A stretch of 50,793 nucleotides of DNA, taken from assembly GCA_016215155.1 (NCBI GenBank), contig JACRLQ010000039.1, positions 1 to 50,793 of the forward strand, read 5' to 3'. This DNA comes from Nitrospirota bacterium (GTDB lineage Bacteria; Nitrospirota; Thermodesulfovibrionia; Thermodesulfovibrionales; UBA6898). The position numbers and the translations under genes are program-made. Shown here piece after piece: positions 1 to 13,263 of this stretch. Under the pieces are notes generated by a model. It ran no database searches, was not told the origin of the DNA, and saw nothing but the letters and a program-made list of their open reading frames with translations. How positions within the stretch are numbered: position 1 is the stretch's first letter; every line of letters begins with the position of its first letter.

Positions 1-221
1 ATTTCATCGGCCTTAACGCTGTCAACACTGCGTCTATCACTGATCCGGTCCAGAAGATTCTTGTTCTTTATTGCTCTTGCCAGAAGCGGTATTGCATATT
101 CGTACATGTCGGCAAAAATACTGTTGTTCTCATTTGTCCAAACAGTAGTGAATCCGGCTCGCGCAAACCCCGTATCAAGGAATACGCCACCCGTGAAAAA
201 AGACAATACTGGAATAAGCAT
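1..221 (-). CDS. DNA cytosine-C5 methyltransferase, N-terminal part (DrmMII-like)
   Basis: This is the first 73 codons of a minus-strand gene that runs off the left edge of the window. The predicted protein begins MLIPVLSFFTGGVFLDTGFA, which matches motif I of cytosine-C5 DNA methylases (the F-x-G-G SAM-binding loop). The segment that follows, ending TVWTNENN, fits the strand carrying the acidic or polar SAM-contact residue. The ATG lies directly after the drmB stop (TAA then ATG, no gap) and has AGGAGAT about 11 nt upstream, so translation is probably coupled to drmB. In class 2 DISARM the methylase DrmMII marks host DNA so that the DrmAB machinery spares it, and the same role is inferred here. 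The catalytic PCQ motif and target-recognition domain lie outside the window, so an intact gene cannot be confirmed. Confidence 0.8.
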   Translation of the reverse strand, partial: MLIPVLSFFTGGVFLDTGFARAGFTTVWTNENNSIFADMYEYAIPLLARAIKNKNLLDRISDRRSVDSVKADE

Positions 222-2126
222 TTATTTTAAATCTCCTAACCTAAAGTAACCGATATCAGAATTATCAAGGCTTCCAACGACAAGTGCTCTGTCAAGAAAT
301 CTGTTGAATTCTTCACACGCGGTTTCAGGGACCAAGCCACAATTATGGCAGGCTGCCAAATTACAATTATCTGGCCCCTGGCCTCCACGGCTACCCATTT
401 CCATGCAGACAGGATCAGCCGAACACCAAGTTGCCTTTTCCAGTGCCTTTAAAACCATCGGCTCGAAATAACCCTGTTTCCCCATTCGTACAAGACCGCC
501 CATTGTGCCTTCAGCGTCACCGGCAGCTGTGTATATAAGAATTCCGGCCATGGGTGCGCCTGCAGTTTCAGATACATATAATCGTTCACGCAGGGACGCT
601 GAACTATAACCACATTCAAAGGTTAACTGGTTCATTAGCAGATGGGCAAGAGTATGAAGAAAAATAAAACGTGGACCTATTTGCCTTACCCGAAGCCCTC
701 TCGCTTGCTGATTCCGCTGATAGCGATCTACTAAAAAACGAACCCTATCTATCACAGAAATCCGTTTTTCCCATATCTGCAATCTTTCTTCGTTTAATTC
801 GAGGAAAATGCCTTCGCCATAAACAATATACGCAGGGAGCCAGGAATTATTACCTTGAGGAACACTTCGCCATAACATAGCCTTTTTTTGTTCAAGGGTT
901 TGATCACTTTCAGGGAATGCACGGCTAAAGCCTGCAAGGACTCTGGTCTCCCTTAGCTTATCAATAAGCATTAATTTTGAAAAGAAGCCAGAGATATTAT
1001 TCTCATAGGTGTCAAGAGAAGCTGCCTTGATCAGTAATTGGCTATCATTTCGAGGAGATCTCAAAACATTAAACTCCGCACGTCGAAGAGCTATCTGCTG
1101 ATCCTCATCAGGGGATGACTGATCTGTCGAATCTTCTTTCTTGCCAGTGAGAATTATGTTGATGCCCGCGGCAATCTCGGCATCAGCATATGGGCGCAGC
1201 AACTGAGCATATAAGTTTCTCAGATCTTCAGGTTTTACTTCTCTGCCAGTCCCAGCCAAAATAGTTAGTAATGTAGAAAGAGGCGGTCCTTCCATAAGAG
1301 CAACAAGTTCAGACGGAGCAGCACTCGTTCCTCTGGGTAAATATATTGCGCTTCTTATATCGGCAAAATAAACATTTGAAGCACTTCTTAATGAGCCTCT
1401 TAAAGGGCGGGGGCATAGCTCATTCTCCTGAGTGCTTAACCAAGGCCGGCTTCCACGGCACTGGAAAACCGTCCCGCTGCTGTCCAGATTCTTGCTCAAA
1501 AACGTTTCACTTCGATCTGATGTGGCTTCAGTAATACTGGATAGCGTGCGTTCAGCACCGCAATCACATTTGACCTTCTGTGCCGCAAGGGAAGCTCCTC
1601 CAGTTGAAATTAAGCGTAGCGGGAGCATGCAAGCAGAAGCTGCAGATCGATGTGCCCATTCTCGCCAAGGGAAATCCTGGATATGCCCTTGATCGCACAT
1701 CGCAATAAAGGGAACTTGCACTAAGTAATTGCTCTTGCCTTTCTCCTGGCATTCAGGACATTTGATCCGGCCGCGGGCTGAAAGTGGCAGCTCGTCGAGC
1801 CTGTAACATTGCCGGCAGAAATGCCATTGAGGAAAACGCAAAAATGGTATTGTGAGACTACTGTTTGGCATATCCTGACCTCTGCGCTTTTCCCTGTAAT
1901 CTGGCGGCAAGCAGAAATGGTGACATCTCAGTAGTCGTTGAAGTCTCCATTCGTCAAAAACAAATTCCTGGGTATCTAAAGTCCTACTGTCAGTTTCGCC
2001 GCTTTCACGCTCGAACCAGTGGTCCAGCCCTCCGGAAATAACTGATGTGCCGTCGCGAACAACAACCATAGCACCAACACCAAATGGCGCAATGAGCTGA
2101 GACCTTCTGAGAGGTCCTTTAGGCAT
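222..2126 (-). CDS. drmB: DrmB-like DUF1998 (MrfA zinc-binding) protein of a DISARM-type system
   Basis: The protein starts MPKGPLRRSQLIAPFGVGAM, the characteristic opening of DrmB proteins, and has about 634 residues. Cysteine pairs CRQC (about 104-107) and CPEC (about 123-126) and a CDQGH segment (about 144-148) look like zinc ligands. The C-terminal third is a DUF1998 domain with HTLAHLLMNQL, an IYTAAGDAEGTMGG segment and a terminal cluster C-x-x-A-C-H-N-C. DrmB partners the DrmA helicase in DISARM. An in-frame ATG 18 nt further upstream (2144) is possible, but GGAGG sits 8 nt before the ATG at 2126 and conserved homology begins there, so I chose 2126. The start overlaps the drmA stop by 8 nt and the stop abuts the methyltransferase ATG. 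Function in this variant locus is inferred from the family. Confidence 0.88.
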   Translation of the reverse strand: MPKGPLRRSQLIAPFGVGAMVVVRDGTSVISGGLDHWFERESGETDSRTLDTQEFVFDEWRLQRLLRCHHFCLPPDYREKRRGQDMPNSSLTIPFLRFPQWHFCRQCYRLDELPLSARGRIKCPECQEKGKSNYLVQVPFIAMCDQGHIQDFPWREWAHRSAASACMLPLRLISTGGASLAAQKVKCDCGAERTLSSITEATSDRSETFLSKNLDSSGTVFQCRGSRPWLSTQENELCPRPLRGSLRSASNVYFADIRSAIYLPRGTSAAPSELVALMEGPPLSTLLTILAGTGREVKPEDLRNLYAQLLRPYADAEIAAGINIILTGKKEDSTDQSSPDEDQQIALRRAEFNVLRSPRNDSQLLIKAASLDTYENNISGFFSKLMLIDKLRETRVLAGFSRAFPESDQTLEQKKAMLWRSVPQGNNSWLPAYIVYGEGIFLELNEERLQIWEKRISVIDRVRFLVDRYQRNQQARGLRVRQIGPRFIFLHTLAHLLMNQLTFECGYSSASLRERLYVSETAGAPMAGILIYTAAGDAEGTMGGLVRMGKQGYFEPMVLKALEKATWCSADPVCMEMGSRGGQGPDNCNLAACHNCGLVPETACEEFNRFLDRALVVGSLDNSDIGYFRLGDLK

Positions 2127-5100
2127 TCTCTTCGCCTCCTTCATTCAAATACAGAGTTGTGATCTCCACTTGACACTCTGCATCAACGTTGCGTAAAGAC
2201 CGCTGTGTTGGCCACGAGATTCTGGCCCATTCACTGCTCACATAAGAACCAGCCTCGCGCAATAAGGGTGGATCTTCGTCCCAGCGGTTCCCATCCCAGC
2301 GCCGCCTTTGCCATCGTTGCCATTCATTTATTCGTGCATCAAAAACACGTTCGAAATTTGAAACCTCTTCTGGATCGATTGACTGAATCCTTGGAAGTAA
2401 GAGATTTTTTATCTGATTTAACAAATCTGCTGGATAAGGGTATGGACTTTCGGCTACCGACTTGGTGCCTGCCTGCCGAGCATATGCAACAATGACTGAA
2501 TGAAGCGCCCTATCAAGCACCGGCGGCGAAAATGGCGTGACACTTGTTGGTTCAACCTGTGCATAAAGCCGTTCGTGGTAACTCCGGAACTTCTCAAAGT
2601 GAGAGCGGTCACGGGGCTTGGATGCACTGTATATTGTGACCACAAGACCAGGGCGTTCCTTCCAGCGACGTCCTACTCTTCCAGTAACCTGGATATATTG
2701 CGAAGTAGTCTTAGGTTGTCCAACAATAGAGATCAAAGAGAGACGGTCAATATCAATACCAACTTCAATGATATTTGAAGCTAAACACACATCGACAGGC
2801 TTGCCCTCGGTACCGGTGCAGCTTCTTTCGAGGGCTACGATGGCCTCAGGAATTTCTTCACTCTTTATACGACCAGTCAGCTCCAGGATATCGCCTAACC
2901 CCAATTTTCGAATGCGTGAGTAATCCAGACCGGTGCGGTTCCTCAAAACCTTGAGATAATCAGGAATGTCCGACTGGAATAAAGAGAGCGTCGTTCCCAA
3001 TTCTCTAAAACTATTAAAGAAGATCAATAGGGTCCACCAAGGGTCTCTCTCTGCTGGAGTAAATGGGACCGCTGCCTGAATGAGGGATGTAAAAGTTCTC
3101 ACCTGTGCTGTTTGCAAGGAGCCAAGGCCCGGCGCATTCACACCGATATAGATTCTGCCTGGATAGTTTGTTCCATCTGGCCGTCTTGCATACCGGGCGA
3201 AAAAAGAATCTTCAACATCAAGGCCTGGCGGCGGGAAAAGTGCAGCATCATTGCGTCCGTATAATGCCTTAATTTGCTCGGTATATCGTCTTATAGTAGC
3301 AGTCGAAGCCACTATTTTAGGAGCAATTGCCTGTCCATTGCGGCGATCAGTACACAACTCTTCAATAACTGCTTCATAAAGACCTACCATAGAGCCAAGG
3401 GGGCCGGAGATCAAATGCAGTTCATCCTGTATAATCAGACCTGGCGGACTGCAAATTCGGTTGCCGTCAACCCCAATGCCAAATAGTGCTCTTGCCTCCG
3501 GCCGCCATGAAAGCATTGCAAACTTATCAACAGTTCCAATTACAAGCGAAGGCGGATTCTCATAAATATCTTGGTCTATAACGTAAACAGGCAAACCATC
3601 TTTGAACTCGCACCTGTTGTCGGGGCACTTGAATATTACAGTTGAACCGCGTTGCTCATATCCTATAAGTCTTGGTGCATAACGTGGCGGTGCCCCCTGA
3701 TATTTGATTGGACCCATTTGCGCACCACACCAAGGACACTTATTTACGATAAACATGTTGTCTGTGAACTGATCGCCCCTTAGTAATGCCCTTAATACTT
3801 CTAACGCCTTCTGGTGCGTATTAGGTGTACTGGCTCCTCCAAGCCATATGCCAATAGAGAACTCTTGTTCGCCGAGGTCTTTTGAGTTATTACGGCGCAA
3901 ATACTCCATGACACATAATAAGCTCGAAGCCCTCTGAAACTGCTGAGTTGTTAGCAATCGCAAAGTGTATCTCATAATAGCGTGACACCCATGATCCAAG
4001 GGATCATTAAGTCGTCTCATAAACATCGCAAAGCTTGCAAGCCCGAGATACGCTTCAGTTTTCCCGCCACCTGTAGGAAACCAAATCAACTCAACTGTGG
4101 AACGGTCAGGGACATTGCCATCAGCGGCAGATTTTAGAGTCATCAAAAGAAATGCAATCTGAAAGGCTCTCCACTTGCCTATGAAGCCAGCAGCATTCGA
4201 AGGGTCAGGATCAGTATACTTTTCCGGAAAAATTAGCCTGCGGGCCACCCGGTCATATTTTACAGATCGTGAATTTCGCCGGCTGCAGATCTGCTGTAGC
4301 AACATGGCATGATTCATAAGTTTGAAGGCTTTAAGTGCCATTTGATTTTCAGATAAATAGGTTAATCCGTCCCTCATTCTTTTTGCACATCTGGTGCATT
4401 CGTCGATATGACGGGTGGCTGCTGGAATATAGAATTGATCCAGTCCCTGAATCTCCTTTTTTCTCTCATTAATCCACTGCGCATAAAAATCAATCACTTC
4501 CATTAATGAGGCTAACCCGTCCTCGCCCGGAATGATGCCGGCTAAAGCTGCCATTGATACTTCAATTGGGCTGCCATCATTACGGGTAATATCAGGGGTT
4601 ATGCTCGGAGTTTCAAAAGCCGGAAGACATTCCGCTCTTACCGAATGTGCATTTATATTGTCAGTTCTTTGCCAATCGGCAGCACAGCCATGACCGACAG
4701 CATATGTGTCTGCTTCCCGGTAGAGAAGCAAGATCGACTGGTCTTCATTATCCAAACTGTTTTTTTTAGCTGACGGATACGGCAGTATATGAGGCAGGCC
4801 ATCGGGGGCAACGATATTAACTTGAAAATAAGTTTGAAACAAGCAATATAGATCAACAGGAATTTTAGCTTGTGTTCTATTGACGAGGCATATTGTGAGA
4901 AGCCGTGTCCGCGTGACTTCAGTAGGTCTTGAAAATACTTCGATGCGCAAGTCCAAGTCACCAAGATTAGCACTTTCGAAACTGCCAGAAGATACTTTGC
5001 CGTTGGTTGCACAAATATCCTCTCCACTAAATGTCGCTTTCAGTGTTACCGAGCTTCGTAGCCACCAATCTCTGTCTTTACCGTCCACCCGCACCTTATT

Positions 5101-5652
5101 CTTGGTATAGCGCCCATTTACTGAACTCTCTTGAAATTCATTGAAGGAGGGTACTTCAACTATAAGAGAACAATGAATTGGAAACTCCGCAAGAAAACTT
5201 ATGCCTATACTGCTGGGTCTGTAAGTGTTGGCCGATGTAAGATCAAGGTCATAAGGATCTGTATCACCACCCGTGGCATCAGCCCTTTTAATAATATTTT
5301 CGATATCTTTTGCCCCTTCAGCTGTCAGTAGGTTGTTAGGGGATGTGTCTTCATCTGGTTCTCCTGCTTCTACAATACTGCTGGCAGCATCAGTAAGCGG
5401 AACAGTTTCTTCATTTTCATCCGGTGTGCCAAATGGGTATAAAACACCTATGCCATATCTCTTGAGTGGACGATCCCGTTGCAAGATTTCCTCGCCGGTG
5501 CCTTTTTGCTTCCATGGCATACGGAATTTTGTTAATTCTTCAAAAATGATTACAGTCGAGCAGTCGAGTTCCTCTCCCTGAGGAGACGGGCCTACAAGTT
5601 CCTCCCTCAGTGCTTTCATAATTATCTTTCTATTGCCCACGTGATCAGCCAT
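2119..5652 (-). CDS. drmA: DrmA-like SF2 helicase of a DISARM-type system
   Basis: This 1177-residue protein has a roughly 500-residue N-terminal region followed by a split SF2 helicase core. Walker A is PTGGGKT (526-532), motif II is DELH (743-746), motif III is STAT (783-786), and motifs V/VI lie in ASNIIEVGIDID and QVTGRVGRRW (about 958-997). Between the first motifs is a four-cysteine candidate zinc site (CPWC at 639-642, C676, C681), seen in this helicase family and in DUF1998-linked helicases. Length and layout match DrmA, whose complex with DrmB binds DNA and is thought to be activated by free 5-prime overhangs of invading phage DNA. It overlaps the NERD-helicase gene upstream by 8 nt and drmB downstream by 8 nt, so the three are probably co-translated. 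The match is strong; assignment to a particular DISARM subtype is less certain. Confidence 0.9.
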   Translation of the reverse strand: MADHVGNRKIIMKALREELVGPSPQGEELDCSTVIIFEELTKFRMPWKQKGTGEEILQRDRPLKRYGIGVLYPFGTPDENEETVPLTDAASSIVEAGEPDEDTSPNNLLTAEGAKDIENIIKRADATGGDTDPYDLDLTSANTYRPSSIGISFLAEFPIHCSLIVEVPSFNEFQESSVNGRYTKNKVRVDGKDRDWWLRSSVTLKATFSGEDICATNGKVSSGSFESANLGDLDLRIEVFSRPTEVTRTRLLTICLVNRTQAKIPVDLYCLFQTYFQVNIVAPDGLPHILPYPSAKKNSLDNEDQSILLLYREADTYAVGHGCAADWQRTDNINAHSVRAECLPAFETPSITPDITRNDGSPIEVSMAALAGIIPGEDGLASLMEVIDFYAQWINERKKEIQGLDQFYIPAATRHIDECTRCAKRMRDGLTYLSENQMALKAFKLMNHAMLLQQICSRRNSRSVKYDRVARRLIFPEKYTDPDPSNAAGFIGKWRAFQIAFLLMTLKSAADGNVPDRSTVELIWFPTGGGKTEAYLGLASFAMFMRRLNDPLDHGCHAIMRYTLRLLTTQQFQRASSLLCVMEYLRRNNSKDLGEQEFSIGIWLGGASTPNTHQKALEVLRALLRGDQFTDNMFIVNKCPWCGAQMGPIKYQGAPPRYAPRLIGYEQRGSTVIFKCPDNRCEFKDGLPVYVIDQDIYENPPSLVIGTVDKFAMLSWRPEARALFGIGVDGNRICSPPGLIIQDELHLISGPLGSMVGLYEAVIEELCTDRRNGQAIAPKIVASTATIRRYTEQIKALYGRNDAALFPPPGLDVEDSFFARYARRPDGTNYPGRIYIGVNAPGLGSLQTAQVRTFTSLIQAAVPFTPAERDPWWTLLIFFNSFRELGTTLSLFQSDIPDYLKVLRNRTGLDYSRIRKLGLGDILELTGRIKSEEIPEAIVALERSCTGTEGKPVDVCLASNIIEVGIDIDRLSLISIVGQPKTTSQYIQVTGRVGRRWKERPGLVVTIYSASKPRDRSHFEKFRSYHERLYAQVEPTSVTPFSPPVLDRALHSVIVAYARQAGTKSVAESPYPYPADLLNQIKNLLLPRIQSIDPEEVSNFERVFDARINEWQRWQRRRWDGNRWDEDPPLLREAGSYVSSEWARISWPTQRSLRNVDAECQVEITTLYLNEGGEENA

Positions 5653-7393
5653 GCCGCGCCCCTTTATCTTCCAAAAGAATGCTCAATATTTCGTTCCTAA
5701 CAGAATCATGAGCTAAAATTATTAGTTTCTGCAATGCCCTGGTTACGGCAATATAAAATAGTGCCTTGCTTGTTGGACCAGAAACCTCGTCAACGTCAGT
5801 GACTACAACAATCGGCGCTTCTAATCCTTTAAAGGCATGAATAGAGCAATACCCAATATGCCCTTGCACTGACAATTCAAAAGGCTTTAATCTGTCAGCC
5901 CAGGGGCTGTCCTGAACAGAATGGGCTGCGCATGCCGTATCTGCCTTTGTAGAGAGAATTACGATATTACCCCCTGTCAATCCTTTCTTGTAAAAGCTAT
6001 CTAAGGTTTTTATAAGCAATGTAGTTTGATCTTTGCTACTGTCATAATAGAGCAATTCCGGCTCGATTCCATTGTCTGGGCGGAGTATCTTGCTGTAGTC
6101 AGGATTCAGATTACCAAGAATATGAACCAAACTCGCTATTCGTGGCGTATTTCTGCAATTCATGCGAAGCGCATAGATTGACGCTGACCCTGACCGGTTC
6201 TTAATGAATACGTCCAATGGGATATTGGCTGCTCCAAATATAGCCTGTTTCTCGAAGTCACCAAAAAATTGCCATTGTCCTGACGCGAGACCGCCTTCAA
6301 GGCTTAAGTCCAGGAAATCCAAATATTCATTTCGCAGAATGTCCTGTGCTTCATCAACAATTATTTCGTCAAAGCAATTTTGGACACCCTCCATCAGAAT
6401 TTTCTCGGTCGCAAGGGTAGGAAGTTTATTTGTCCAAAATGTTTCCTGACATTTTTCTGTTTCATTTGGAACAATTCCAGCTGTTGACAACATTTGACTG
6501 TGCAATGTTCTCGTAATAACCTGTGGCTTAAGGCTCTCCATTTGATCTTCAAGCCACTTGCCTAAGTGACGATTAAAACATACAAACAGCACACGATTAC
6601 CTTTCAGAGCGCTCCGGCGAGCTGCCTCAATCGCAAGCATGGTCTTCCCTGTTCCGGCAGGCCCGGAGAAAGCGACCCGCGCATTTGCCTCCATAGCGTC
6701 AAGCGCTGCAATTTGTTCCTGAGTATAATACTTAAGCTCATTTGACAGTTTAAGAGCTTGCTGTTTGGGACTCTCATAGAATTCAAAGCTCGGTCGCAAC
6801 AAGTTGGTCATTATGTTGCACTGTTCTTCAGTTGGACTGACTGATTGAGACTGAAACCATTTCACATCGAGACGTTCCTTAAGAAAGGCTCTCGCTTTTT
6901 CCAAAATGCCCAGCAATAATATACCTAAGGGTCTGGCACGGAAAGCCCGTGTGTCAATTGCCTGCCATGGATGCCATTCATCTGATTTAACAGAGAACTC
7001 CACAAAAGGAAATATTACTGCCGACCAAAAAACTATATGTGAAAAATCAGGTCTTGCTACAATGACTCTCTTGCGAATGCTATACATCGCTTCTGATGCT
7101 TGTCTAAAGGGTCCTCTCCTATCGGGCCGGTTGTCTAAACCATAGAACCATTGCCCATTCTCCCTGCGCAGGCTTGAGCAGGCTTTAACTTCAATGCAAA
7201 GCACTCCCTTCGCTGGAATAATTATTACGAAATCAGCTTCGCCGGAAATCTGCCGCATATGCTCAGCAATATCAAGGGAATGTAATACTATCCAGTCACT
7301 GGTTTCTGGATCATTCTTTAACCTCCGGAAAATTTCTTGTTCTCCTGGGCTTGGGCAAGAGGGCGATATATAAGGTGGTATCATCCTTGCCAT
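5645..7393 (-). CDS. NERD-domain nuclease fused to an SF1 (UvrD/Rep-like) helicase
   Basis: This 582-residue fusion carries an N-terminal NERD (nuclease-related) domain at about residues 10-130, with GEADFVI (51-57) and IEVK (67-70) supplying the acidic and lysine residues of a restriction-endonuclease-like fold. An SF1 helicase follows: GPAGTGKT (244-251), DEAQD (347-351), a GDF-x-KQ segment (378-383), CR (413-414), HAFKGLE (519-525) and AVTRA (549-553). NERD-helicases of this type occur in many phage-defence neighbourhoods. Here the gene lies within the DISARM-like operon, overlapping drmA by 8 nt. AAAGGA stands 6 nt before the chosen ATG. It could supply the nuclease activity that DrmC (absent here) gives canonical DISARM; that substitution is an inference. 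The gap of 88 nt to the upstream gene is the largest in the operon. Confidence 0.85.
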   Translation of the reverse strand: MARMIPPYISPSCPSPGEQEIFRRLKNDPETSDWIVLHSLDIAEHMRQISGEADFVIIIPAKGVLCIEVKACSSLRRENGQWFYGLDNRPDRRGPFRQASEAMYSIRKRVIVARPDFSHIVFWSAVIFPFVEFSVKSDEWHPWQAIDTRAFRARPLGILLLGILEKARAFLKERLDVKWFQSQSVSPTEEQCNIMTNLLRPSFEFYESPKQQALKLSNELKYYTQEQIAALDAMEANARVAFSGPAGTGKTMLAIEAARRSALKGNRVLFVCFNRHLGKWLEDQMESLKPQVITRTLHSQMLSTAGIVPNETEKCQETFWTNKLPTLATEKILMEGVQNCFDEIIVDEAQDILRNEYLDFLDLSLEGGLASGQWQFFGDFEKQAIFGAANIPLDVFIKNRSGSASIYALRMNCRNTPRIASLVHILGNLNPDYSKILRPDNGIEPELLYYDSSKDQTTLLIKTLDSFYKKGLTGGNIVILSTKADTACAAHSVQDSPWADRLKPFELSVQGHIGYCSIHAFKGLEAPIVVVTDVDEVSGPTSKALFYIAVTRALQKLIILAHDSVRNEILSILLEDKGARHG

Positions 7394-7481
7394 AGCGCAT
7401 CCTTTATGTCGAATGGATGACCGAGCAGTGAAACAGAGACTTTCATTATCTCACTGGAAACGTTGCGGACCCTGAATGCAG

Positions 7482-8744
7482 TTAAGCTACCACTGTCAAC
7501 AAGTCGTTATAGTCCCACGTTTTGATGCTCTTATATGACATCCAGTTCCTAACATTTATTTCATTTGCCTTTAAAGAGCCGAGATCGATTAGCTTGAGAC
7601 TGACGTCAAGAAGGCTGGCTGATTTTGTTGCCACCTCACGCAATCGTGTTTTCCAGAGCTTTTGCATCATCCTGGCCCCTTCAGCCTCTTTACCCATAAT
7701 CCAATCTGCAATGTTAATAATATAATCGCCACCTCCACTTGTTCGTAACAGAACATAATTGTTAGGTGATATATTATTTGCAGATATTCTCTTCACCCTG
7801 TGCTGTTCCTCTTCATCAAGATCTATTATCAAGACTGAAGAGTTTTCTTCGGTATCCAGAAATACTGCTTTTTCGCCTTCAAGAAGAAAAAGCCGTGCAT
7901 TAACTTCTTCTTGGCCGGCTTCACGTGAAAGATGACCTGTAACTTTTCTCGAAATGCTCCCCCAGTCGATTTTAGGGATCAAATCCTCAGATGATAAATA
8001 TTCTTCTTCAGTTACATATATAGTTTCTGGCGTAGACTTCTCAGGTTCTGCCTTATAGTCTTTTGAACCAATGAAAACCGGCTCAACTCGCAAGGTTTCC
8101 TTAATCCAGCCATACCGGACCAAATTAAGCTTGAATGCCCTTGGTGCGCTATAAACATAAGACGGGAACCAGCGTGAGGGACCGATTACAAAAAGGTTTT
8201 TATAACAATTCCCGCGTCTGACCTGGACAGGCGCCAATAATGGAATTCTATGCAGCACATGGTGAGATTTCAATACCTCTTCTGCAGATGGGATAAGATA
8301 TGACTCCTTTAGTAATATGGCTGTGTCGGAACTTTTGTCAGGTTGAACTTTTGAATCCAAGAAATCCAGTAACGGGCTTTCATTGAGTTCAAGCAATGAA
8401 AATATCTGTTCGAGTATTTCTTGCGCATACCCGTCAAACTGTGGAAAAAGGTTTTTGCAGCGCAATGCACTATGTTTCAATACTCTAATACTGCTGAGCG
8501 TTTGTGATGGAGGGCTATTCAGAAACAGCGGAGCAGCACATAATTCAAAACGATATCTTTTAAGAGGCGACATAAAAGCCTTCCAGTAGGGATCATCAGC
8601 ATTTTCGCCTAATATATGTTCAAATTTTTTCAGCGAAAGACAAAATTTGCCAAGTGCTTTGTGGGCAACTGTATGTTTAATTATTTCGAAATTTTTGCTG
8701 CATTCATATATATCAGTGGCAACTGTCAAATCACATTGCTTCAT
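7482..8744 (-). CDS. Unrecognised 420-residue protein of the DISARM-like operon
   Basis: I do not recognise a named family. The protein has no signal peptide, membrane segment, Walker motif or phospholipase-D HxK motif. The N-terminal half (1-150) looks helical, with a long hydrophobic/charged pattern. The C-terminal half has a beta-rich stretch (RLFLLEGEKAVFLD, then SVLIIDLDEEEQHRV) followed by VLLRTSGGGDYI and a helical tail with Q-K-L-W-K. The upstream gene ends inside its start codon (4-nt overlap, ATGA), so the two are translationally coupled. With that 312-residue neighbour it occupies the place of drmE in class 2 DISARM, and the two together approach the size of a single large DrmE. 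A split DrmE-like protein is one possibility, but I cannot confirm homology from sequence alone. Confidence 0.7.
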   Translation of the reverse strand: MKQCDLTVATDIYECSKNFEIIKHTVAHKALGKFCLSLKKFEHILGENADDPYWKAFMSPLKRYRFELCAAPLFLNSPPSQTLSSIRVLKHSALRCKNLFPQFDGYAQEILEQIFSLLELNESPLLDFLDSKVQPDKSSDTAILLKESYLIPSAEEVLKSHHVLHRIPLLAPVQVRRGNCYKNLFVIGPSRWFPSYVYSAPRAFKLNLVRYGWIKETLRVEPVFIGSKDYKAEPEKSTPETIYVTEEEYLSSEDLIPKIDWGSISRKVTGHLSREAGQEEVNARLFLLEGEKAVFLDTEENSSVLIIDLDEEEQHRVKRISANNISPNNYVLLRTSGGGDYIINIADWIMGKEAEGARMMQKLWKTRLREVATKSASLLDVSLKLIDLGSLKANEINVRNWMSYKSIKTWDYNDLLTVVA

Positions 8745-9679
8745 TCTGCCCCTTCCTGGAAAGAAAGAATATCGATCCCTTGGGGCAATTCAAGAGTATT
8801 TTCAATTGGGGTGTCACCTATACGCCTTTCAACGTATTCATTATTTAACTGGTCGACTGCATCTTGAAAACAAGATTCTGTTTTATCCAGCAGTACGAGC
8901 CAATTTGACTGGAGCCAGTAATCACGCCATTTCAAAAAACTGATGGCTCCGTCAAAAATGACCATATAGGGTCTATCTTGATTAGCCGTTAAAGATGTGT
9001 GTTCTCTATCTGCCGGCATTATATTTGACCGGTATGCACTTCCTTCAGCCATGAACTTTCTTGCCCTGAGTACGTCTTGAAATGTTCCCTCGACGTGTCC
9101 TGATCCAAATGATATTTCTGTATCTTTAATTTCGTGCCGTAATGTGTTTACACAGCCGATAATTACGCATTCAAGACGTGATCTCATTGCGAACTCATAT
9201 GAGTTATTTGTACCAAGCATAGTTTTCAGAAATTCTTTATTGTGAACAATGCGGTGCTCTCCAACTGTTTTTTCAGGCGAACCATTACTTGAACCCCCGA
9301 CTATTTGAAGCCTTTTTCTTGCTTCCTGAAGAGGGAGGCCGCATTTGCATCTTTGCCTTCCCCTTTTCCAAATAAAATTTATAGATGGACCATCTTCCTT
9401 CTGTTCTATTCCAATAAATTCACCATGGTAACAGTCCTCGCCTGAGCGATAAATCACTGGCCGTCCAGACTCGATGGTCTTAAGATTGTCGAGGTATTCA
9501 GTATCATCAAGACTGTCATAAGGGATTTTAGCGCGCTCGATAATATATCCTGTTGCTATCAGCGCTGCAGCATACGCCCTAATTGGAACAGCAAGGCCAG
9601 TAATAAAGCGATAGTGGGGATCTTGTGGAGCTGCTATGGCAGAGCCGAGGGAGATAAAGGAGATAGCCCACGAAGGCAT
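8741..9679 (-). CDS. Unrecognised 312-residue protein, first visible gene of the DISARM-like operon
   Basis: I do not recognise the family. Visible features are a CKCG pair near the middle that might bind metal, and a C-terminal segment MVIFDGAISFLKWRDYW then NWLVLLDKTE, with a hydrophobic-strand-plus-acid pattern reminiscent of a Walker B strand but without any Walker A. No signal peptide or membrane helix is evident. An in-frame TAG lies 6 nt upstream of the ATG, so the frame is closed there. The ribosome-binding site is poor (only TAGG), and the artificial adapter begins 22 nt upstream at 9701, so promoter and leader are lost and the true start is uncertain. It overlaps the next gene by 4 nt. 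Operon position argues for a role in the same defence system. Confidence 0.65.
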   Translation of the reverse strand: MPSWAISFISLGSAIAAPQDPHYRFITGLAVPIRAYAAALIATGYIIERAKIPYDSLDDTEYLDNLKTIESGRPVIYRSGEDCYHGEFIGIEQKEDGPSINFIWKRGRQRCKCGLPLQEARKRLQIVGGSSNGSPEKTVGEHRIVHNKEFLKTMLGTNNSYEFAMRSRLECVIIGCVNTLRHEIKDTEISFGSGHVEGTFQDVLRARKFMAEGSAYRSNIMPADREHTSLTANQDRPYMVIFDGAISFLKWRDYWLQSNWLVLLDKTESCFQDAVDQLNNEYVERRIGDTPIENTLELPQGIDILSFQEGAE

Positions 9680-9700
9680 TGCAACCTATCTACCGCCATT

Positions 9701-9734
9701 AGATCGGAAGAGCACACGTGTAGGGAAAGAGTGT
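9701..9734. other. Illumina TruSeq adapter sequence: chimeric assembly junction
   Basis: The 34 bases begin with AGATCGGAAGAGCACACGT, the start of the standard TruSeq index-adapter arm, and continue as GTGTAGGGAAAGAGTGT, the reverse complement of the TruSeq universal arm. The two arms meet at the self-complementary octamer ACACGTGT, where an assembler could step from one adapter strand to the other. This is synthetic library sequence, not biology. The contig was probably joined here through untrimmed adapter, so linkage between the defence operon on the left and the chromosomal genes on the right is unsupported. Confidence 0.95.
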
Positions 9735-9830
9735 TATCTTGTTTTATCACCGCGCTCCCTCCATTATTCACATGCCTCCCACACTATAGAGAACTAACTC
9801 CAGGTCTTTAGACTGAAGCCTGAAGCCTAA

Positions 9831-10208
9831 TTATAGACCCAGACGATCTTTTATCGCCGCTAGAAAAGTTTTACCTTCTTCGATTTTTATGGATGCAACA
9901 GGCTCGATAATCTCTTCCTGTATATCATAATCGGCAATTTCTCTTATCTTTCTTGCATCGATAAGCATCCGGTGATATTTCGGATCTATCCTGCCCGCCT
10001 TTGCAAAATAGTATCCAAGCGCGGATTCAACGGCAGAGTGTTTTGTAACGTCAATATCTTCGGATTTCAACAAGGCTTGAGCGGCATAGTACATCGAGTA
10101 ATAAACTTTACTTGCAGCATCGGAAGGATACCCGTCTCGCAAGAGATCTTTTGCCACTTCAAGTGCATGCTCGGCCTTTTCAATAAGCTTTTTGACTTCC
10201 TCTGTCAT
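9831..10208 (-). CDS. HEPN-domain protein, probable toxin of an HEPN/MNT pair
   Basis: This 125-residue helical protein matches the HEPN family: an N-terminal helix with A-E-H-A-L-E, the segment KVYYSMYYAAQALL (about 39-52), and the RKIREIADYD motif near residue 90 that marks the usual position of the conserved HEPN arginine. HEPN proteins are often RNases or nucleotide-binding partners of small nucleotidyltransferases. Here the gene follows an MNT-family nucleotidyltransferase with a 4-nt ATGA overlap, the standard HEPN/MNT toxin-antitoxin arrangement. The canonical RNase signature R-x4-6-H is not evident because the histidine position is not histidine. It could therefore be a non-catalytic HEPN of the DUF86-unlike class, so toxicity is uncertain. 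Confidence 0.85.
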   Translation of the reverse strand: MTEEVKKLIEKAEHALEVAKDLLRDGYPSDAASKVYYSMYYAAQALLKSEDIDVTKHSAVESALGYYFAKAGRIDPKYHRMLIDARKIREIADYDIQEEIIEPVASIKIEEGKTFLAAIKDRLGL

Positions 10209-10534
10209 ACCGTAATACCTTCTTTTTCGACATGCCGGTAGAAAGAATATCCCTTATTCAGGGCTGTCAAAAATTGTGACTCTGCAAGGACCTTAAGCGA
10301 GATTACAGGTTTAAAATCATTGTCCCACATGACCTGATACGCAATGTCTTCGAGGCATTTTTCTATCTCGGAGTTTTTTTCATCGACCAGAGCCAGGAGG
10401 TCGAGATCAGAATCGCCTGTCTCTTCTCCTCTTGCCCTTGAGCCGAACAAAACCAGTTTCTTCAGATGTTTTAAGACATCCCCGGTCAGTCTGCTTTTTA
10501 AATCAATAACGAGTTGCCTGTCTTTTTCGTTCAT
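10205..10534 (-). CDS. MNT-family minimal nucleotidyltransferase, probable antitoxin partner of the HEPN protein
   Basis: The protein carries the polymerase-beta nucleotidyltransferase signature LFGSRARGEETGDSDLDLL: GS, then a D-x-D pair that would coordinate Mg2+ and NTP. In HEPN/MNT modules this enzyme can neutralise the HEPN toxin, in studied cases by AMPylating it. I placed the start at the ATG beginning MNEKDRQ (110-residue region), because homologues usually start about 25-30 residues before the GSRARG motif. A start at 10600 would add 22 residues and has a better Shine-Dalgarno (GAAGGGG), so it remains possible. The stop overlaps the HEPN start by 4 nt. Confidence 0.82.
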   Translation of the reverse strand: MNEKDRQLVIDLKSRLTGDVLKHLKKLVLFGSRARGEETGDSDLDLLALVDEKNSEIEKCLEDIAYQVMWDNDFKPVISLKVLAESQFLTALNKGYSFYRHVEKEGITV

Positions 10535-10745
10535 ATATTTTCTTCTTACCAGTTTATCACAGTGGACAGGTTTTCTTGCATACCGCTTTCCAATCAGCAT
10601 GCATCCCCTTCAAAGCAACAAAGTGCTTAATAATAATATGTTATTTCTGTTAAAGGCAAGAACTATTTGCAGAACTGGTTGGGGCTATTGGGGTCGATAG
10701 GCGGTTCCGTAAGAGTGACGGCAGCGACAAAAAATGGCAAGGGGG

Positions 10746-11186
10746 TTACCGGCCATATAGACGAAAATCCAGAAATTCACGTATTCTCACAAAATCCTTT
10801 TCATTTTTTGTAAGCACAAACGCCCCAATTCTCCTGGCGGAGCAGGCGATAAGAATGTCATTTTGGAGCCGCGAGAGATATGTTGAGTCATAGCCGTATT
10901 TTTTTCTGCACTTCGCAATGATGCCGCCCGTTTGACGCCAGTCTTTATCATTGGGGACTATCAGTCTTCCGACATCCTGAAAGGTTTGATACAACTTGTC
11001 GAGAAGCTTGATTGATTGACTGTCATGCGCTCCGGCGAAAAGTTCAGAAATGACAACCGAACTCATATATAGAAGCGGACTGACAAAGTCCTCGGGAAAA
11101 TGCGGATGCATAATACCATCTCTGAGGAAAGGTATATAAACGGAGGTATCAAGGACAGCTTTAATCTGATAATCTGCCGAAGACAT
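10746..11186 (-). CDS. PIN-domain ribonuclease, VapC-like toxin
   Basis: This 146-residue protein has the PIN-domain order of acidic residues: LDTSVYIP (first Asp at about residue 12), VVISELFAGA (Glu about 48), then NDILIACSA and VLTKNEKDF near the end. PIN toxins of VapBC modules cleave RNA, commonly tRNA or rRNA, using Mg2+ bound by these acids. The start codon lies inside the preceding antitoxin gene (26-nt overlap), and the pair sits behind a palindromic operator-like site. All four expected acidic positions appear present, so the protein looks intact. The RNA target cannot be inferred. Confidence 0.87.
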   Translation of the reverse strand: MSSADYQIKAVLDTSVYIPFLRDGIMHPHFPEDFVSPLLYMSSVVISELFAGAHDSQSIKLLDKLYQTFQDVGRLIVPNDKDWRQTGGIIAKCRKKYGYDSTYLSRLQNDILIACSARRIGAFVLTKNEKDFVRIREFLDFRLYGR

Positions 11187-11370
11187 CTTCTATCTTACAT
11201 TTACCTTTGACCGACATAAGGGTCCTATGAATTTTTGCATTCGCAATCACCATATCGAGGGCCTTATTGATTGCCTCAGTATCGGTAGAGGCATGGGTAA
11301 GCCGTCTGACCATCTCAATTTTGCCGTGTTCAAGAAGAAACTGTTTTCTTACTTTTGCTTCTGCCTGCAT
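11161..11370 (-). CDS. Small antitoxin-like protein upstream of the PIN toxin
   Basis: This 69-residue, charged protein has a helical middle (EAINKALDMVIANAK) and a C-terminal tail suited to wrapping a toxin. The pattern KIEMVRRLTHASTDTEAINKALD resembles the strand-helix-helix of a ribbon-helix-helix DNA-binding domain. A very strong Shine-Dalgarno (GGGAGGTGATG) precedes the ATG, which would favour antitoxin over toxin synthesis. Gene order (antitoxin first, overlapping toxin) and the upstream 14-bp inverted repeat support autoregulation. The family assignment is by context and pattern only. Confidence 0.75.
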   Translation of the reverse strand: MQAEAKVRKQFLLEHGKIEMVRRLTHASTDTEAINKALDMVIANAKIHRTLMSVKGKCKIEDVFGRLSD

Positions 11371-11386
11371 ATTTCATCACCTCCCA

Positions 11387-11417
11387 TATGTGTATGTTAT
11401 ATGATAACATACACATA
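11387..11417. promoter_or_regulatory. Perfect 14-bp inverted repeat, likely antitoxin operator
   Basis: TATGTGTATGTTAT (11387-11400) and its exact reverse complement (11404-11417) flank a 3-nt spacer. The right edge of the gene-proximal arm lies 17 nt before the antitoxin ATG and overlaps its Shine-Dalgarno region. A symmetric site of this length is what a dimeric or tetrameric antitoxin would bind to repress its own operon. Confidence 0.7.
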
Positions 11418-11446
11418 GATATAATCATACAGTTAGTTGCCTGGGC

Positions 11447-11477
11447 AAAAAAAGGGCAGGGGGAGACCCTGCCCTTT
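11447..11477 (-). terminator. Rho-independent terminator of fhs
   Basis: AAAGGGCAGGG (11451-11461) and CCCTGCCCTTT (11467-11477) form a perfect 11-bp stem with a 5-nt loop. On the minus strand the stem is followed by a run of seven T (plus-strand A at 11447-11453). It lies 22 nt beyond the fhs stop and insulates fhs from the toxin-antitoxin operon downstream on the same strand. Confidence 0.85.
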
Positions 11478-11499
11478 AGGACAATATGTCAGTTGTTTT

Positions 11500-13263
11500 T
11501 TAGAACAATCCGCTGACTTTTCCTGTTTCTACATCTACATCGATACGTCTGAAGGCGGGGTTGGAACTCGTCCCCGGCATGAGGCTTATTGTCCCTGCCA
11601 TCGGGCAGAGGAACTTGGCGCCGGAGTAAATCAGGACGTCCCTGATCGGCAGGACCCAGCCTTTAGGCACTCCTTTTAACGTCGGATCATGTGTAAGGCT
11701 CAGGTGGGTCTTGACCATCATGGTAGCGTAGTCCGCATACTGCGGATCGTCTTCCAGCATCTTCGCCTTCGCCTCGGCCTCGGCTGTCCAAGATACTCCG
11801 TCAGCACCGTAAACTTCTTTTGCGATGATCGCCACACGGTCGCGCAGTTTCATCTCGAGAGGGTAGAGGAACTTGAAGTCGTTTTTGTCATTGCAGGCGT
11901 CGATGACCGCATCCGCCAGTTCAAGAGCGCCGTCGCCGCCTTTAAGCCAATGCTGTGATTCAGCGCAGCGTGCGCCTGCCGCTTCGGCTGCTTTCTTGAT
12001 AACGGCCACCTCAGCGTCAGTGTCAGTGTAGAAGCGGTTGACGCAGACGACCGGATTGATGCCGGACTTGCGGATCACATTGATCATATGGACCATATTG
12101 GCGCAGCCCTTTTCGACCAGGGCGATATTTTCCTTGGTGTATTCTTCCGGCAGGGCCTTACCGGCGACGACTTTAGGACCTCCGCCATGCATCTTAAGCG
12201 CGCGGACCGTTGTGGTCAGGACCGACACATGTGGTTTCAGGCCGCTGAAACGGGACTTGACGTTCCAGAACTTTTCAAAGCCGATGTCAGCCGCAAAGCC
12301 CGACTCTGTAACGTGATAATCAAAGAGCTTAAGTCCGACCCTGTCGGCAATGATCGATGACTGGCCGACGGCGATATTGGCAAAAGGCCCGGCGTGCACA
12401 AGACAGGGGTTATATTCGGCGGTGCACATGAGCGTCGGATTTATGGTATTTCTCATAAACGCCGCCATGGCGTTGCCGACTTCCAGGTCGCCTGTGGTAA
12501 CCGGCTTGCCGCTTTTGTCAAAGGCCACGGTAATATTATTGAGGCGCTGCTTCAGGTCTGCAAGGTCGTTGGCAATCGACAGGATCGCCATGCACTCAGA
12601 CCCTACCGCTATTCCGAACTTCGACTGCATCATGAAACCGTCGGTGCGTCCGCCGATGCCGATAATGATATTCCTTAAACTCTGGGCGCAGAAGTCGATT
12701 ATCCATCCCATCTCGACACGGGTAGGGTCGATGTCCAGACGTCTCATCTTGGTGAGCCGCGCCAGCTGTTCATCATTATAGTTACGCTCGTGCTGCATGC
12801 GGGAGGTAGCCGCCACCATGGCCAGGTTATGTGCATTCATAATATCGTTGATATCGCCCGTGAGACCGAGGGAAAATTCGGTCATCGGGATCAGCAGAGA
12901 GTTGCCGCCGCCGGCGGCAGTCCCCTTGACGTTCATCGTCGGGCCTCCGGAGGGCTGGCGCAGGGCGCCTCCCACGTTAACGCCACGTTTGCCGAGCCCC
13001 TCCATGAGCCCGCAGGACGTAGTGCTCTTGCCTTCTCCAAGAGGCGTAGGCGTTATGGCCGTCACCTCTATGTATTTTCCGTCGGGATTGTTCTTCAGAC
13101 GGTTTATTACCTTGAGAAAGTCAATCTTGGCCAGGCGGCCCATCGGGAGCATTTCATCCTTTTGTAGCCCCAGTCGCTCCCGCCAGTCTTCGGGGGTAGG
13201 CATATTTTTTTCGGCCTCTTCGGAAATCTGCCAGTCGGCTAACTTCGTTGCATCAAATGCCAT
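11500..13263 (-). CDS. fhs: Formate-tetrahydrofolate ligase
   Basis: This enzyme joins formate to tetrahydrofolate with ATP to give 10-formyl-THF in the cytoplasm, the entry step of the methyl branch of the reductive acetyl-CoA pathway and a donor for purine synthesis. The 587-residue protein has the family P-loop [12 protein letters not shown] (71-82), then [13 protein letters not shown] and a glycine-rich segment, and later the conserved [18 protein letters not shown] stretch. Length is slightly above the common 555-560, with the extra residues mostly before the P-loop. purN, which consumes 10-formyl-THF, lies nearby on the other strand, separated by the surA-like gene. A strong terminator follows the gene. 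Confidence 0.96.

Follow-up and report, generated by a model that had tools for sequence, protein, structure and literature searches.

Does the neighbourhood of a DISARM-like operon and toxin-antitoxin genes, as assembled for a Nitrospirota bacterium, exist in any cell? The window, i.e. the whole stretch of 50,793 nucleotides analysed here, represents an entire contig (C57) of a 3.43-Mb assembly in 101 contigs, and between these two sets of genes it contains 34 bases resembling sequencing adapters. The evidence given below makes it very probable that the contig was falsely joined through adapter DNA, i.e. by a library-preparation artefact captured by the assembly.

Adapter bases at positions 9701 to 9734

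On the plus strand, positions 9701-9734 of the window (34 nt, AGATCGGAAGAGCACACGTGTAGGGAAAGAGTGT) represent a chimeric Illumina adapter. The 19 nt from 9701 (9701-9719) are identical to the TruSeq index arm and the 18 nt counted back from 9734 (9717-9734) are identical to the universal arm (CGTGTAGGGAAAGAGTGT), with the trinucleotide CGT at 9717-9719 being common to both arms and lying within the palindrome ACACGTGT. These 19 and 18 exact bases sharing CGT bear out the proposal of an earlier note on this DNA that an index arm runs into a universal arm, fused at the palindrome. Past 9734 the window continues with TATCTTG, where the full-length TruSeq sequence would give AGATCTCGG, so the adapter match ends at this point. 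The right-hand match stops exactly at GAGTGT, with which the short, 33-nt form of the read-1 adapter oligo begins at its 5' end. On the minus strand, ACACTCTTTCCCTACACG-TGTGCTCTTCCGATCT is read at this site; here the opening half of the read-1 oligo and the closing half of the read-2 oligo are linked via a shared ACG. The hybrid end adjoining the left piece is GCTCTTCCGATCT, normally the insert-contacting end, and the right piece adjoins the read-1 oligo at its outer 5' end.

The reading that natural sequence merely resembles an adapter by chance is refuted by calculation, as the 19-mer alone has an expectation of about 4e-7 in the window and the 15 bases following it are those of the other arm; such a coincidence is practically inconceivable. 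Moreover, the 13-nt core AGATCGGAAGAGC has a single exact copy in the 3.43-Mb assembly, located at this site, with the reversed control giving 0, and a search for the R1/R2 hybrid pattern allowing up to 3 mismatches returned the 9701-9734 site as the sole match in the assembly. The further statement of the earlier note that this is not natural DNA is therefore confirmed. As a 13-mer with 2 mismatches is not significant, the case stands on the exact 34-nt composite. Neither inverted nor direct repeats that would make 9701-9734 a natural site were found, no tRNA is located close to the join, and promoter matches at the join occur at chance level only. The exact 34-mer was found nowhere else in IMG/VR (0 matches) or in plasmids (0 matches), and phage records show only matches of about 88-91%, a level expected from the plain universal arm. 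A literature search for a publication with the hybrid oligo found none. The bases at 9701-9734 are adapter-derived and constitute a laboratory artefact of known kind, not a biological feature.

The operon left of the adapter

The left piece (1-9700), in the following termed X, bears an incomplete DISARM-like operon on the minus strand, cut within the C5 methyltransferase gene at the contig end and, probably, within its first gene at the adapter. From the contig end, it comprises a C5-cytosine methyltransferase gene of which the initial 70 codons are left (drmMII-like, 12-221; 59% identity to residues 1-70 of the counterpart in G133, a genome of the same order), a drmB-like gene (222-2144; Pfam MZB; 76% identical in G133), a drmA-like helicase gene (2119-5652; 78% identical), a NERD nuclease-helicase gene (5645-7393; Pfam NERD with 1e-12 and UvrD_C_2; 77% identical), a shortened drmE-like gene (7482-8744; 420 aa versus 513 aa in G133) and the first gene (8741-9679). 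In X, a drmA helicase gene and a drmB DUF1998 gene lie next to each other, as expected of DISARM (PADLOC DrmA with 1e-210, DrmB with 5e-75). For the drmE-like homologues from G133 and Symplocastrum, weak Pfam DrmE_C matches under the curated cut-off were obtained. The C-terminal part of the drmE-like gene of X has been lost by an out-of-frame deletion of about 180-190 bp near 7490-7514 relative to G133, and the leftover 3' part runs on in another frame; this shortening is either real decay or a second assembly fault. The full-length methyltransferase of G133 has DruM2 as best profile (4.7e-129), ahead of DrmMII (3.4e-33), with only 70 codons being available for comparison in the window.

A complete version of the operon is encoded in G133, the DrmA, DrmB and NERD-helicase proteins of both copies being 76-78% identical. 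This locus (L068, 1880-13655) is a DISARM class-2-like operon with NERD nuclease-helicase, C5 methyltransferase, PDC-M01B-like protein and Vsr, and it has a tRNA-Arg gene (509-585) about 1.3 kb upstream as well as AbiEii and DUF6577 genes after the operon. When searching with DrmA, the operon of X was found in none of 148 other relatives, the four same-genus genomes included. A search of IMG/VR for relatives of the first gene gave no result. On plasmid 1 of Nostoc sp. HK-01 (L210, 9914-18895), a relative of the first gene is followed by a transposase gene, an ORF of the 484-aa class, a helicase gene and another ORF; this arrangement may represent the same operon in a plasmid-borne, cyanobacterial version.

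With 312 aa left, the first gene has probably been truncated by the adapter join, and the lost 5' part does not appear to lie on the other side. In four homologues (from G133, Symplocastrum torsivum and two Nostoc plasmids), the start lies 14-44 codons further upstream. Of the 21 native bases separating the ATG at 9679 from the adapter, 12 match coding DNA of G133 in the same register, a result equalled or surpassed in 0.23% of all placements on the 20-kb G133 locus. Within these 21 bases, there is an in-frame TAG where G133 has a Trp codon. The deduced truncation is based on the four homologues and the 21-base alignment, and translation could in fact begin at the ATG at 9679. On the other side of the adapter, 96 bases show no similarity to the upstream region in G133 (score below the shuffled mean), and none of the three reading frames resembles the N-termini of the homologues. 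A gene cut at the adapter and having no continuation to the right argues against an adapter merely lodged in continuous DNA. True adjacency of X and the right piece, termed Y, with the adapter as a mere spurious insertion of 34 bases, would have its sole support in the similar composition of both sides, but removal of the adapter would leave the first gene still without its 5' part, as neither the bases nor the frames of Y supply it; this reading appears highly improbable. A different matter is one island constituting a true but non-contiguous neighbourhood, which the low G+C and the similar trinucleotide usage of both flanks would also fit.

For the preferred reading of a false join, the following course of events may be proposed. 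Two adapter arms would have recombined at their three shared bases (CGT/ACG) to give the hybrid duplex ACACTCTTTCCCTACACG-TGTGCTCTTCCGATCT, possibly by mis-priming or fill-in at this microhomology and subsequent ligation at the outer end. With X attached to the insert-proximal end of this hybrid and Y to the outer one, the assembler would have read through it and thereby linked two contig ends that lie side by side in no cell, presumably on the basis of only a few joining reads. Native sequence at the outer end of an arm is not expected from ordinary read-through, which makes an aberrantly ligated or mis-primed adapter molecule the simplest source. Consequently, the claim of the earlier note that the assembler fused unrelated ends via untrimmed adapter needs to be modified. 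A false join is very probable indeed, considering the internal adapter and the truncated left gene lacking continuation, but calling the ends unrelated is too definite, since the pieces could be different places of one genome, and a plain untrimmed adapter between two inserts does not fit native sequence abutting the outer end of an arm on the right.

Right flank, composition and source of the left piece

Directly after the adapter, a low-GC segment (9735-11496, 42.7% G+C) encodes on the minus strand a HEPN toxin-like protein (9831-10208; Pfam HEPN, 2e-13; 85% identical in the genome G039 with the same gene order), an MNT nucleotidyltransferase antitoxin-like protein (10205-10600; Pfam NTP_transf_2, 1.5e-8) and a PIN (VapC-like) toxin (10746-11186; Pfam PIN, 5e-7), and the small ORF upstream of the latter (11161-11370) is, judged by position and size, a probable VapB-like antitoxin gene. 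DNA from the small-ORF region is conserved with G039 up to 11416, the PIN-MNT-HEPN layout is common to the window and G039, and MNT-HEPN is also found in G089. In two genomes of the order, the VapBC-like and MNT/HEPN pairs occur together as a conserved set of low GC (9735-11496 in the window and 8498-10179 in L075); in G039, this set is followed by an ORF which by eye resembles a Cas3-type HD protein. The formate-tetrahydrofolate ligase gene (FTHFS, 11500-13263, minus strand), 95-96% identical in four same-genus genomes, is the first gene of the chromosome shared with these congeners, and right of about 11.5 kb FTHFS, SurA, PurN, TlpA-like and ClpC genes occur in the same order in all four. 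After FTHFS, the congeners carry a histone-deacetylase-like gene, Dus, an MFS gene and V-type ATPase genes. A DNA search of this flank against the present genome gave no match but is probably too insensitive at about 70% identity, and proteins were therefore used; in the protein search of this assembly, neither the deacetylase nor the MFS gene nor an orthologue of the ATPase subunit was found, with only 26-31% hits for the ATPase. The congener block after FTHFS is thus either replaced or unassembled here.

The low G+C content left of the join had been taken in the earlier note as a sign of different origins. This does not hold, as X has 44.7% and the segment between adapter and FTHFS just 42.7%, compared to 49.7% in the rest of the contig and 46.8-56.9% in twenty other contigs of the genome, from which the background composition was taken. 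Likewise, GC3 values are 0.36-0.41 for the operon of X and 0.38-0.44 for the HEPN, MNT and PIN genes, versus 0.55-0.67 for the host genes tested, and trinucleotide usage is similar on both flanks of the join. The two flanks are alike in G+C, GC3 and trinucleotides, X still being an outlier in tetranucleotide usage (distance from the genome mean 0.327, with a maximum of 0.271 among 32 equal-size chunks). No composition change falls exactly at the join, nor is one required for a false join. A GC step as evidence for the join was considered and rejected; the step lies at about 11.5 kb, 1.8 kb right of the join, and G+C therefore gives no support to a chimera at 9.7 kb. Composition is as compatible with a foreign piece as with a native island that was acquired, and cannot tell the source of X.

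Two sources of X are about equally probable. That X is DNA of another organism, leaving the present genome without any DISARM-like system, has somewhat less than an even chance. Its tetranucleotide distance exceeding that of all 32 chunks, the absence of DrmA and the first gene from the four same-genus genomes, and the lack of the remaining methyltransferase part on all other contigs of this assembly (G000), which is 100% complete, would all agree with it. However, acquired defence loci are commonly outliers and patchily distributed, so that all three points are equally expected of a native island; furthermore, the toxin-antitoxin segment, physically on the host chromosome, has the same composition, and the operon also occurs elsewhere in the order, in a genome with 76-78% identity of its core proteins. 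Alternatively, and with a probability likewise just short of one half, X belongs to the same genome and lies in or near the low-GC toxin-antitoxin island, not directly adjacent, with the adapter having bridged the gap. GC and GC3 are equal on both sides of the join, and with the deacetylase, MFS and V-type ATPase block after FTHFS not found, the true neighbour of this end would be unassembled or replaced. Shared low GC, on the other hand, is weak evidence, X matches nothing in the flanks of the congeners, and the missing part of the methyltransferase appears on none of the contigs of the genome. Tentatively, and with rather more doubt than confidence, X and Y might together represent one defence island, in which a DISARM class-2-like variant, including a NERD nuclease-helicase gene and also present in a member of another family of the order, sits beside MNT/HEPN and VapBC-like pairs.

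Consequences and comparison with known systems

Since the join consists of adapter, the DISARM-like genes cannot be assumed to be neighbours of the toxin-antitoxin genes, nor even to be part of this genome. Any claim of a DISARM-like system in this organism, or of DISARM beside toxin-antitoxin genes, depends on the adapter-made join. The warning in the earlier note that the adapter undermines both linkages is justified insofar as the contig does not show them, but a native origin of X in the same genome is equally likely. Marker-based scores (100% complete, 1.8% contamination) gave no flag for the join. Hybrids sharing three bases can slip past screens for whole arms, as just 18-19 nt per arm remain, and screening for short adapter cores inside contigs, beyond contig ends, appears worthwhile. 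The value of the adapter scar is in quality control, which protects downstream work.

Compared with DISARM class 2 (drmA, drmB, drmMII, drmE), X likewise combines DrmA, DrmB and a DrmE_C-like gene in a single operon with what is left of a C5 methyltransferase gene. In contrast to this class, a NERD nuclease-helicase gene separates drmE from drmA, both operon ends are missing, and no drmC phospholipase-D gene was seen among the genes scanned of the complete G133 operon, the copy in the window being cut there.

Relics of adapters are also found in other assemblies. The IMG/VR contig L203 starts with TACATTCTTTCCCTACACGTGTGCTCTTCCGATCT, the same ACG-joined hybrid, followed by insert, and in L179 both arms are fused at CTC within the contig; fusions of arms at tiny overlaps thus recur. 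Among the universal-arm matches in IMG/VR, 123 of 125 lie not more than 300 nt from a contig end, on the outer side; the matches in L153 and L179, which fall outside this range, represent internal joins. The 19-nt index arm occurs in 3 of 396 genomes of the phylum of the window, namely in this one and, about 190 nt or less from a contig end, in G063 and G116. An internal site is therefore uncommon among adapter relics, which points to a join. In G116, a genome of the same order (contig C163, locus L205, from 1501 onwards), the index arm is fused to an inverted copy of itself, and some 130 bases of different sequence then lead up to the contig end.

Microbial genome assemblies are well known to contain leftover adapter, preferentially at the ends of contigs (Moeller et al. 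2024, PMC11536531). As in those cases, the AGATCGGAAGAG core with its index- and universal-arm continuations was kept in a contig. The present case differs in its position 9.7 kb inside the contig, not at the end, and in being a fusion of two arms with native sequence against the outer end of one of them. Microhomology-induced chimeric reads have been described to arise in end repair from genomic fragments of fixed tissue (PMC8674242). There, genomic fragments of fixed tissue are joined, whereas adapter arms are concerned here, and that process is applied by analogy only; common to both are a few shared or palindromic bases that let two single strands join during library preparation.
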